Source: a virus
IMG/VR virus record: IMGVR_UViG_3300012928_000058
Coordinates: 1-20,734 of that record
Length of the DNA stretch: 20,734 bases
Direction: 5' to 3' (one strand)
The translations under genes were made by a program, and so were the position numbers. Positions 7,216-19,891 of the stretch are shown here, in pieces; within the stretch, counting starts at the first letter, position 1; each line of letters opens with the position of its first letter. The notes below the pieces were generated by a model. The model did not search any database. It had not been told where the DNA came from and saw only the letters and a list, made by a program, of their open reading frames with translations.

Positions 7216-7497
7216 ATGCTAGTAAACGAAATCATATCATCTGACCTTTCAGAGAAACAAATATGGGGAAGACGTGGCAAGAAGCTAGTTAGAAAGTACA
7301 GATGTGCTTCTGGTAGACGTCAAGGTCGCATTGTTGCTAATATTGCACAATGTTTTGCCGCTCCTAATATGAAGGCTAGAATGTCAATGAAACGCACTAG
7401 AGCAAGACTAGGTGCTAGAATGGCACGAAAAGCACGTAGAACAAAAAGAACTAATCCAGCTTCAATTGCTTTGAAAAGATTGAACAAGAGAGGTTGA
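7216..7497 (+). CDS. Arg/Lys-rich internal protein, first paralogue
   Basis: The 93-aa protein has an N-terminal leader MLVNEIISSDLSEKQIWG followed by a strongly basic body (KKLVRKYRC, KMRMKRTRARLGARMARKARR-like stretches, end KRLNKRG). Cys30 and Cys46 are spaced 16 apart, as in the next gene's product, and the block [KV]VRKYRCxSG-x-[RK]-x-GRIVA is shared. The charge suggests DNA binding or condensation inside the capsid; I recall equivalents in marine T4-like phages without assigned function. The VNE at residues 3-5 deviates slightly from the [LI]xE cleavage rule. The stop lies one base before the next start. Confidence 0.75.
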   Translation: MLVNEIISSDLSEKQIWGRRGKKLVRKYRCASGRRQGRIVANIAQCFAAPNMKARMSMKRTRARLGARMARKARRTKRTNPASIALKRLNKRG

Positions 7498-8917: not shown

Positions 8918-9796
8918 ATGCAGATTAGAGAATTTACTAGACCCGTAACAGTAGCAACACTGAACGAAAATCTTCAGAAAAGATTCGGGCAAAAAATAGA
9001 TGTATCAAAATTTACATTAGAGCAATTAGAAGATGCTCGCAACAGAGTTAGAACACTTTTATCACAAGTAGAAACAAATGAAAGTTTCGATTCAGTGAAC
9101 ACCAGCGATGTATACCAAAAGAATAAATTATTCCTTGATATTCTCAACCAAGCCATTGCTGAAGCTGATCACGATAAAGAAGATGAAAAAGACGATGATA
9201 AGAAGATGGTTGTATCTAAAGCAGATAAGAAAAACAATACACCTGCTTATCAAAACTATAAAAAAGGCGACAAGCGTTACAAAGCCGCAGATGATCTAAA
9301 TGAAGGGGCAGAAGAAGAGGCCGCTCTTACTATGGCCGCAAAGGACATGGTAGACAGAGTTACAGGCTGGATGGAAGACACAGCAGAAATGCAAACTGAA
9401 TCTATGTTAGAAATAGGCGACAAGATTAGAGATGAAATGGGTGTTGAAAAGTCGGAAGAATTTATCGGCAGTGTTAAACCAGCACTTGAAAGTTTATTCA
9501 CGTCATTGGAAAGCACCAGAGACGCTCTAACAAGTGGCGTAGCCATTTTGACGGGCGAAGGCGCACCAGCTACAATGGGCGATGAAGTTCCTGCAGAAGA
9601 TCCAGAAGGCGAAATGGAACCAACAGTTGACGCAGAAGCAGGAGCGGAAACAGAAGACCCAGCAGAAGGCGACGAGTTTGCAACCGCAGATGCATCAGCA
9701 GGAGGCGATGAACCGGCAGACAGGGCCAAACGCGAAAGCGTTGAATTAAGCAGAAAATTAGGTTTGCTCTTAGCAGACTCAAAAAAAAAGGCCTAA
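8918..9796 (+). CDS. Acidic prohead-core-like protein, zero-frame product
   Basis: The 292-aa protein begins MQIREFTRPVTVATLNENL (IRE fits the [LI]xE cleavage rule). It continues with a helical region (LEQLEDARNRVRTLLSQVE), a Lys/Asp-rich linker (~residues 85-125) and the conserved block KDMVDRVTGWMEDTAEMQTE. A low-complexity Glu/Ala/Asp segment (~215-270) follows, and it ends LLLADSKKKA. I recall homologues in T4-like cyanophages as structural or prohead-core proteins. The high acidity fits a scaffold or internal core role. The zero frame stops right after A9-G at 9781-9790, and the -1 frame continues (see the extension entry). AAAGGA precedes the ATG. Confidence 0.82.
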   Translation: MQIREFTRPVTVATLNENLQKRFGQKIDVSKFTLEQLEDARNRVRTLLSQVETNESFDSVNTSDVYQKNKLFLDILNQAIAEADHDKEDEKDDDKKMVVSKADKKNNTPAYQNYKKGDKRYKAADDLNEGAEEEAALTMAAKDMVDRVTGWMEDTAEMQTESMLEIGDKIRDEMGVEKSEEFIGSVKPALESLFTSLESTRDALTSGVAILTGEGAPATMGDEVPAEDPEGEMEPTVDAEAGAETEDPAEGDEFATADASAGGDEPADRAKRESVELSRKLGLLLADSKKKA

Positions 9797-10095
9797 CGCT
9801 ATCTGAAGAAACCAGAGACGGTCTGGCACAGGTTCTACACTTAAAACTTCAACAAGGCGCAACTAAAATTAGTTGGAATGACCTTAACGATTTCCTCGAC
9901 AACGTAGGCAGTGAACACTTTGACAAAGACAGTTTCGTACAGGCCTTTAACAACGACAAAAGAATTCAAGACATGGTCGACAGTTTCGATGAGAACGGTG
10001 TTACGCTAAAGGGTGGAGCAGAACCAAAAGCAGAACCTGAAGACGATACTGTCGACAACATGGCATCCAGAGCCGCAAACAAAGCAATATCATAA
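8918..10095 (+). CDS. Acidic core-like protein, predicted -1 frameshift product
   Basis: At 9784-9790 the zero-frame bases A_AAA_AAG form a classic bacterial -1 slippery heptamer, four bases before the UAA at 9794. Slipping back one base continues with GGC CTA ACG and stays open for 101 codons to the stop at 10093-10095. The extension reads GLTLSEETRDGLAQVL, includes ISWNDLNDFLDNVG and MVDSFDENGVTLKGG, and ends NMASRAANKAIS. Its acidic, helical composition matches the upstream part. Its first ATG is about 60 codons in and has no ribosome site, so it is not a separate gene. A weak stem (CCAGA 9812-9816 with TCTGG 9822-9826) lies downstream. Alternatives are RNA polymerase slippage on A9 or an indel error in the homopolymer. 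Confidence 0.6.
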
Positions 10096-10100
10096 TCAAC

Positions 10101-10129
10101 TTGACAAACACCTAGATCTGTTATATACT
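10101..10129 (+). promoter_or_regulatory. Near-consensus sigma-70 promoter
   Basis: TTGACA (10101-10106), a 17-base spacer and TATACT (10124-10129) form an almost ideal host sigma-70 promoter. TGGAG (10136-10140) and the ATG at 10146 follow directly, so the leader is about ten bases or less. It probably starts early expression of the 10146-13289 operon. Confidence 0.9.
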
Positions 10130-10145: not shown

Positions 10146-10745
10146 ATGAGTCTTTTAAGAAAGAGCAACAACATTGAATTTTATGCAGTACCCAATCAAC
10201 ATTGGATCGTTACTGCTGAGTATCCATTTTATAAAGATTTGGAAAAGTTTTTTGATTTTTCTAATGAGGATATAAGCAAAGGATCTTGCACTATAAATGG
10301 AATACAACGTCCTATTAGAAATAATGAATGGGAAAAAGAAAGACAAAATTATAAGGATTGGTTCTTGGATATATTTAGACAAGTTCAAGTTCCAATAAAA
10401 GAAATACACGATAGACAAAATGAACAGGAACATAAAGCCTGGACTATAAATTATTTTCCAGGAGGATGGCAAGCTGGGCATTTTCATAGCACAGAAAAAT
10501 ACAAACAAGAAAATAAAAGATTTGCATCTAGTGTAATGTTTTTTGACAGCTTACAACCAACAAAAGATAATCCATTCAATGGTTGCCTTTACACTATATT
10601 ACAAGACCCTAACGGCTACACTTATGATCACAAGTTTCATCCTAGTCCAGGTAAGGTAGTTGTGATGGACGACAGAGTATGGCATGGTGCATATCCCACA
10701 GAAGATATGAGAAGATGCCTAGTATGGGATTTTGATATAGCATGA
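10146..10745 (+). CDS. Probable 2OG-Fe(II) oxygenase
   Basis: The 199-aa protein resembles the short 2-oxoglutarate/Fe(II) oxygenases common in marine T4-like phages. It shows INYFPGGWQAGHFHSTE (His112 and His114 as metal-ligand candidates). A distal VVMDDRVWHGAYPTEDMRRC follows, with His180 and Arg189/190 fitting the second His and the 2OG-binding Arg of the double-stranded beta-helix fold. The usual HxD/E is HxH...E here, so the ligand assignment is uncertain. The substrate is unknown. It is the first gene after a strong sigma-70 promoter, so probably early. Its stop overlaps the hemC start (ATGA). Confidence 0.65.
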   Translation: MSLLRKSNNIEFYAVPNQHWIVTAEYPFYKDLEKFFDFSNEDISKGSCTINGIQRPIRNNEWEKERQNYKDWFLDIFRQVQVPIKEIHDRQNEQEHKAWTINYFPGGWQAGHFHSTEKYKQENKRFASSVMFFDSLQPTKDNPFNGCLYTILQDPNGYTYDHKFHPSPGKVVVMDDRVWHGAYPTEDMRRCLVWDFDIA

Positions 10746-11485
10746 AGATAGGAGTACGAGGAAGTAAGCTGGCTTTAGCTTACGCAGAAAAAGCCAAACA
10801 GGCAATTGGACAAGGTGAAATTGTTGTAATAGAAACGGCAGGAGATTTGAATCCTGATACTCCTATTAACGAGATAGGCGGTAAAGGAATATTCTGTAAA
10901 GCTATTGAACAACAATTATTAGAAGGAAACATAGATGTTGCGGTTCATAGTCTTAAGGACATGCCAGGAGATGATGAACATCCTGACTTACAAATTTGTG
11001 CAGTCTTAGAACGTAATAGTCCCCACGATGTTCTATTAGGAAAAATAAAAAATAATTTTGTCTTAGGTACTAGTAGTCCAAGACGAAAAGCACAACTAGA
11101 ACAACTGTATGCAAATCAATCAGTGCAGATCAAACCAATTAGAGGAAACATAGATACAAGATTAAAAAAACTTGACGCAGGAGAATATGATGCTATAGTA
11201 TTAGCAGAAGCAGGCTTGCAGGCTCTTGCAATAGAGAGGACTTACACAAAAGTTCCTATTGTTCCAGCAGTAGGACAAGGTATCATAGCTTTGCAAACCA
11301 GAAAAGATGATGTTGAAACAAATGAGGTTGTAAGTAAAGTAAATCATAAGTTAACAAGCGAACACGCAAAATTAGAAAGAGCCTTGTTGAAAGGTATAGG
11401 TGGAGACTGTGAAACAAAGGTTGCCGCAATAGCTACAGGTAGCAATCCTATTAAACTTGAAGCAGTATATTATGCAGATGAATAA
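10742..11485 (+). CDS. hemC: Hydroxymethylbilane synthase (porphobilinogen deaminase), C-terminally short
   Basis: The enzyme joins four porphobilinogens into hydroxymethylbilane, a committed step to haem, sirohaem and cobalamin. The 247-aa protein has the family motifs in order: GVRGSKLALAYA at the N-terminus, GGKGIFCKAIEQQLL, AVHSLKDMP with catalytic Asp73, GTSSPRRKAQL (Arg114/115), RGNIDTRL, and VPAVGQGIIALQ. GGDCETKVAA holds Cys223, the expected attachment site of the dipyrromethane cofactor. The usual length is ~300-315; here domain 3 stops soon after its second strand (LEAVYYADE), so about 60 residues are missing. Active-site residues are retained, so it may work. It overlaps both neighbours. 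Haem-pathway genes are rare in phages. Confidence 0.93.
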   Translation: MKIGVRGSKLALAYAEKAKQAIGQGEIVVIETAGDLNPDTPINEIGGKGIFCKAIEQQLLEGNIDVAVHSLKDMPGDDEHPDLQICAVLERNSPHDVLLGKIKNNFVLGTSSPRRKAQLEQLYANQSVQIKPIRGNIDTRLKKLDAGEYDAIVLAEAGLQALAIERTYTKVPIVPAVGQGIIALQTRKDDVETNEVVSKVNHKLTSEHAKLERALLKGIGGDCETKVAAIATGSNPIKLEAVYYADE

Positions 11486-19669: not shown

Positions 19670-19891
19670 ATGGCACAACAAGGAAAACTTAAATGGTACA
19701 ATCACGTAAAAGGCTACGGCTTTTTATCTCGTGAAGAAGGACAAAAAGATTTGTTCGTTCATGTATCTGAGTTCCGCAAAGCAGGAATTAAAAAAATTGT
19801 TGAAGGTATGATTGTAGAATATACAATTACTGACCACAACGGTAAGCCTGTAGCAACAGACATTCTAATCGTACATACACCAGAAGCTTAA
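19670..19891 (+). CDS. csp: Cold-shock protein (CspA-like)
   Basis: The 73-aa single cold-shock domain binds single-stranded RNA or DNA. RNP1 appears as KGYGFLSRE and RNP2 as DLFVHVSEF, after the typical GKLKWYNHVKGYGF opening. It ends in ...ILIVHTPEA. Phage cold-shock proteins are thought to act as RNA chaperones or antiterminators; here that is inference. The gene has its own late-type promoter and a hairpin leader. It follows the LSm-like and Hc1-like genes, forming a group of small nucleic-acid-binding candidates. Confidence 0.93.
   Translation: MAQQGKLKWYNHVKGYGFLSREEGQKDLFVHVSEFRKAGIKKIVEGMIVEYTITDHNGKPVATDILIVHTPEA

Follow-up and report, generated by a model that had tools for sequence, protein, structure and literature searches.

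Candidate programmed -1 frameshifting joins a predicted winged-helix domain to a probable internal head protein of uncultured marine jumbo phages

Among the -1 frameshift pairs of phages, that of the gpG/gpGT-like tail chaperones is the commonest known, and such pairs are mostly known from these genes and from genes for major capsid proteins. Frameshifted head proteins include T7 10A/10B, the major head protein of A2, and a protein of phage Privateer (PMC7881722, PMC10885494). The internal proteins of T4 carry short capsid targeting sequences that are removed by gp21 (PMC9026906). The locus described below, for which no report of the frameshift was found in the open-access literature, is part of what is probably an internal head gene in widespread uncultured marine jumbo phages, a group not represented among the cultured phages of the collection searched, and it gives a testable link between recoding and the loading of protein into the capsid.

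The slip site and its conservation

The DNA analysed here, termed the window, is the whole 20,734-nt stretch of IMG/VR record IMGVR_UViG_3300012928_000058, in which A denotes the 0-frame product, B the -1 frame extension and A-B the fused product, which would be 392 aa long (Table 1). An earlier, sequence-only reading of this DNA had drawn attention to a gene ending TCA AAA AAA AAG GCC TAA, with A_AAA_AAG in frame ahead of the stop, and re-reading of 9779-9796 as the in-frame 3' end of ORF 8918-9796 agrees; its claims that the -1 frame remains free of stops over 101 codons to 10095 and that both products are acidic (pI ~4.4 for A and for B) likewise stand. No ATG, GTG or TTG was found near the beginning of B in the -1 frame from 9790, as expected of an extension that had been said to possess no usable start of its own, and the promoter placed after B is plausible as a consensus match. 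Automated gene prediction would cut A short and either overlook B or give it a wrong start.

Table 1. Coordinates of features of the A-B locus and its flanks in the window
Feature	Position	Strand	Remarks
Gene A	8918..9796	+	292 aa, acidic (pI 4.4); homologue of the RaK2/CBB/PA5oct virion structural protein
LNE/G ahead of the conserved core of A; predicted head-protease site	9296..9304	+	Sequence motif; putative cleavage
Nine-A run	9781..9789	+	Sole A or T run of at least 8 in the window
Slippery heptamer A_AAA_AAG, 0 frame	9784..9790	+	Overlapping A_AAA_AAA sits one codon upstream
B, -1 frame extension	9790..10095	+	101 codons and TAA (10093-10095); predicted winged-helix domain
0-frame stop TAA	9794..9796	+	One codon past the slip codon
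LSE, [LIV]xE motif opening B, predicted head-protease cleavage site	9799..9807	+	Conserved motif
Weak 5-bp stem-loop CCAGA-GACGG-TCTGG, 3' of the slip site	9812..9826	+	-6.4 kcal/mol alone
Sigma-70-like promoter match TTGACA-17-TATACT, past the end of B	10101..10129	+	11/12 consensus positions; consensus match only

Scanning of IMG/VR with A returned more than 500 relatives, and in the best 80 loci of these (50 non-identical), which were inspected first, the run consists of exactly nine As throughout, a 0-frame stop follows 1-22 nt after it, and the -1 extension spans ~98-119 codons, one being ended by a contig edge. Four further IMG/VR scans brought the collection to at least 172 non-identical loci encoding both A and B. 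This set comprises the best 80 loci per scan and favours close relatives, so that fractions hold for these loci rather than for the whole family, and counts refer to non-identical sequences, many of them mutually related. The slip form, consisting of an in-phase heptamer, an early 0-frame stop and a stop-free -1 extension, is found in 165 of the 172 non-identical loci listed. All 165 have A_AAA_AAR in phase; all have a 0-frame stop no more than six codons from the slip codon, where chance would place a stop within seven codons in ~40% of loci; and all have an extension, 53-137 aa in length, that is free of internal stops. The same arrangement occurs in two independent contigs from public MAGs. 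Tracts of nine or more As number 97 at the slip site versus 5 elsewhere in 604 kb (101 loci less than 85% alike), and the two other A9/T9 tracts of a 357-kb relative both lie within longer ORFs, neither at a gene end. The arrangement is thus beyond chance, because it recurs in 165 non-identical relatives and because A9+ tracts are concentrated at the slip site.

The two MAGs that contain these phage genes (contigs L421 and L422) are filed as Neomarinimicrobiota and Rickettsiales; the contigs are probably mis-binned phage, and their placement says nothing on the host.

Homopolymers are error-prone, and a split frame at such a run could reflect a sequencing or assembly error (the sequence-only reading had itself considered that ten As might be the true number) or a decaying pseudogene. 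Either origin is vanishingly improbable and was rejected: 165 non-identical loci, drawn from many metagenomes, and two MAG contigs share the run and the frame change, a recurrence that rules out a missing tenth A and shows the A-run, frame change and extension to be kept among homologues, as that reading had anticipated. In addition, pN/pS across 153 close pairs is 0.21 in the -1 frame, versus 1.2 and 2.5 in the other two frames, and by this comparison of sequences B is under purifying selection in the -1 frame.

The run itself varies in length. Nine As are present in 142 of the 165 slip loci, ten in 6 (mostly TCA AAA AAA AAA followed by the stop), only eight in 7 (TCT AAA AAA AAG, for example) and six in 10 (GGA or TCA AAA AAG), and the A8 and A10 forms always contain the in-phase heptamer. 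In L284, one of the six-A loci, B has an ATG as well, and the remaining 7 of the 172 loci have a B with its own ATG and no slip site. This natural series, running from A6, A8, A9 and A10 through A6 with an own start to an own start only, bears on how slip sites arise and disappear. Two loci, L059 and L062, have a tandem pair of A9 tracts ahead of the 0-frame stop.

Could B instead be translated independently, by re-initiation at a non-canonical start near the A stop and with no frameshift? B is a separate own-ATG gene in the 7 family loci, and the gene that follows the A homologue in cultured jumbo phages (see below) begins at its own start. Yet in 142 of the 165 slip loci the beginning of B has no ATG, GTG or TTG close by, and a nearby ATG in the B frame is present in only 3; the heptamer keeps its phase even though the distance from the A stop to B differs between loci; and the slip site and an own start for B almost exclude each other, L284 being the sole locus with both. 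Independent translation would also leave the conservation of the A-run without a reason, and we regard it as highly improbable. In L284 (3440-3500) a six-A slip site is followed a few codons later by an in-frame ATG for B (MLVSDILLKE), and this locus is a possible intermediate between the slip and own-start states.

Homologues in which the two parts are separate genes had been named as evidence that would count against frameshifting. Such homologues do occur, both in the 7 family loci and in RaK2, CBB and PA5oct. The 7 family loci represent an alternative state rather than a refutation, however, because they have no slip site and because, in a tree of A cores, they are nested at two places among the slip forms (bootstrap support does not settle the placement), a pattern suggestive of two or more losses of the slip site within the clade.

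Ribosomal versus transcriptional slippage

Slippage by RNA polymerase, as described for Thermus dnaX, would provide another route to the fused product: addition of one A, or loss of two, within the A9 tract would yield some transcripts that encode the fusion in-frame. Several features of the run point in this direction. Nine As are kept in 142 of the 165 slip loci although six suffice for the heptamer; four loci with TCG for TCA (L013, L016, L017 and L020) still have nine As, the run being shifted one base along the frame, because AAG is replaced by AAA; and these genomes have very few other A9 tracts. A long homopolymer of about nine or more is nonetheless not universal, being reduced to eight As in seven loci and to six in nine loci that have no other start. 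These nine A6 loci (GGA or TCA AAA AAG), each from a different metagenome, keep the same heptamer, frame and extension, and the A8 and A10 forms retain the in-phase heptamer in every case.

RNA structure downstream of the slip site also bears on the mechanism. The z-scores used here come from single-sequence folding compared with shuffles that preserve the protein and codon use, and the 101 representatives, less than 85% identical in B, are not independent. Structure is strongest over the 0-105 nt that follow the slip site, with a mean z of about -1.0 to -1.2 against mostly -0.1 to -0.4 elsewhere. A folding segment with z below -2 lies just after the slip site in 62 of the 101 representatives versus 28 further downstream and 16 upstream, and the near-versus-far difference gives p 2e-8 in a paired test that ignores kinship among loci. 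In the A6 loci, which include one clade with GGA AAA AAG, a hairpin lies 5 nt downstream of the slip site, with z near -4 in L246 and L258; its covariation amounts to one compensatory pair only, too thin to count. A second family of hairpins, ~50-70 nt downstream, does have compensatory changes. Upstream of the slip site of family loci no strong Shine-Dalgarno-like stimulator is seen; the mean signal near -17 is weak.

The structure enriched 3' of the tract is not yet transcribed when the polymerase would slip and cannot act on it, and ribosomal slippage is favoured for this reason. Together with the A6 loci, this disfavours transcriptional slippage as the general mechanism, and we consider it unlikely; ribosomal slippage fits the sequences better. 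Programmed -1 ribosomal frameshifting, yielding A and A-B from one gene, is thus proposed with high confidence on the comparative evidence.

The window is itself unremarkable in this respect. The weak stem noted by the sequence-only reading is present where it was placed and pairs as described, but the stimulatory role offered for it is not supported: downstream structure in the window (z -0.37 over 0-60 nt) is not significant and no stronger than in synonymous-codon shuffles, whereas some other clades have strong stems. The clade of the window presumably relies instead on the long A-run, which puts two overlapping heptamers on offer.

The 357-kb relative (L417, L419) has a single cluster of 24 tRNA genes, Lys-TTT and Lys-CTT among them. 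A tRNA-Lys(CTT) should lower slipping on AAG, and its presence counts against the frameshift. The same relative has a predicted tmRNA (L419:15163-15596) with the tag VAVNDNNFALAA.

Identity of A and a possible route of B into the head

A matches phrog_14154 (E 3.9e-13), a head and packaging family, and is homologous to the virion structural protein of phages RaK2, CBB, XaC1 and PA5oct, with 23-28% identity and invariant residues in common; a Pfam search gave no match for A or B. Downstream of the A homologue these four phages have first a separate 104-116-aa gene and then an exonuclease, and the PA5oct record lists A and the next gene as structural by ESI-MS/MS. A profile comparison (hhalign) of the small gene of these jumbo phages with B was not significant; by position, size and motifs the two are likely homologous. 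When A and B from the window and from other members of the family served as tblastn queries against the phage collection, no cultured phage that carries the frameshifted pair came up. On these similarities A is a probable head or core protein, probably internal, and not the capsid protein.

The layout of a short product with a frameshifted extension of ~100 residues resembles that of the gpG/gpGT-like tail assembly chaperones, and A and B might be suspected of being such a pair. Their surroundings fit this poorly. In the window, A is accompanied by an exonuclease, NrdA/NrdB, small proteins and a pectate-lyase-like tail protein, and no tape measure gene was recognised next to it. The homologue of A belongs to a head-and-packaging PHROG, and the PA5oct pair is recorded as structural, whereas tail assembly chaperones are not usually known as virion components. 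An identity as tail chaperones was rejected on this misfit of neighbourhood and virion annotation and is very unlikely.

Other genes of the window include porphobilinogen deaminase HemC (10742-11485; PF01379, E 5e-61), with NrdA/NrdB downstream, a PRPP-synthetase-like gene (23-607), a class 3 lipase gene on the minus strand (932-1699; PF01764) and a cold-shock domain gene (19670-19891; PF00313). ORFs at 7216, 7499, 7816, 8265 and 8918 open with short peptides that resemble one another (M-x-[IVF]-x-E-[FIL]) and may be a common head-targeting leader. The variable linker of A (9206-9312 in the window, 2501-2607 in L086) shares MVVxxADKKxNTPAYQxxKxGDKRYKAAD with gp185 of Synechococcus phage S-SSM5, and this stretch may be a mobile motif of cyanophage proteins.

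The sequence-only reading treated B as added length, which it is, but B appears to be more than a longer tail. The AlphaFold2 model of B has winged-helix topology in a core, residues 11-67, that is predicted with confidence (pLDDT ~90), and its best Foldseek matches in the PDB are winged-helix proteins, none below E 0.001. B is therefore predicted, from these models, to be a separately folding winged-helix domain, and it would lie behind a putative head-protease site. In the model its first helix begins directly after a conserved [LIV]xE, a motif that lies no more than 14 residues into B in 162 of the 165 slip loci, against a background of 2.6% and 13% in composition shuffles. The same motif, as [LIVM]xE/G, stands ahead of the conserved A core in 95 representatives, out of 96 for which it was located.

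A protease that could act at such sites is encoded by both long relatives (261 and 357 kb; the window is a fragment only), which have a gp21-type prohead protease (PF03420, E ~1e-26) together with a gp23-type capsid protein carrying YLAE/S at the position expected from the cleavage of T4 gp23. Where B has its own start in this family it opens with MKISDIINE/G or MRVSDIILE/E, and such leaders (MKISDIINE-like) resemble the capsid targeting sequences of T4 (PMC9026906). Fusion to A may quite possibly package B in the prohead, a gp21-type protease then cutting it free, a reading of the motifs that we hold at somewhat less than even confidence.

The proposed sequence of events is as follows. Most ribosomes would stop at the TAA at 9794 and release A (292 aa), while a fraction would slip back one base on A_AAA_AAG (9784-9790) and continue for 101 codons to give the 392-aa A-B; B has no other evident expression route in this genome. 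Through the A-B fusion a minority share of B would enter the prohead, and there the gp21-type protease would cut after [LIV]xE before the A core and again before B, and B would thereby be freed inside the capsid. The frameshift may accordingly be a dosing or loading device, in which a set fraction of the core protein carries winged-helix cargo into the prohead, the protease frees it, and the cargo may be injected with the DNA. In evolution the frameshift would stand in for a capsid-targeting leader, with lineages switching between a B that has its own start and a targeting peptide and a B fused by frameshifting. This wider proposal is the more tentative of the two.

Comparison with known systems

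The tail assembly chaperones, lambda G/GT and relatives, are likewise a frameshift pair conserved in many phages. The present pair differs in its neighbourhood, which has no adjoining tape measure gene, and in that the A homologue is a virion protein. Adjacent structural gene pairs of RaK2-like and PA5oct-like jumbo phages (CBB gp298/gp299, for example) have the same order of A, small gene and exonuclease, a clearly homologous A, and a small gene similar to B in size, in its [LIV]xE motif and in a C-terminal motif; unlike A-B, they are two genes with their own starts and no slip site.

As for the slip site, E. coli dnaX shares the in-phase A_AAA_AAG heptamer, and a downstream stem is present in several of the clades studied here. 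The two differ in that the shift truncates the dnaX protein and extends A, that the A-run is six there and usually nine here, and that no strong upstream Shine-Dalgarno stimulator is seen here.

The own-start forms of B resemble the T4 internal proteins (PMC9026906) in having a short N-terminal peptide that ends in an [LI]xE site, and the long relatives resemble T4 in combining a gp21-type protease with a gp23-type capsid protein. The slip forms depart from T4 in that fusion to A would take the place of the targeting-like peptide. T7 10A/10B, A2 and Privateer provide a parallel for the recoding itself, each having a structural gene with a minor form that bears a C-terminal extension made by -1 frameshifting. 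What sets the A-B pair apart from these is that the extended protein is probably an internal or core head protein rather than a capsid protein, and that the added part is predicted to fold as a winged-helix domain, with a putative head-protease site in front of it.
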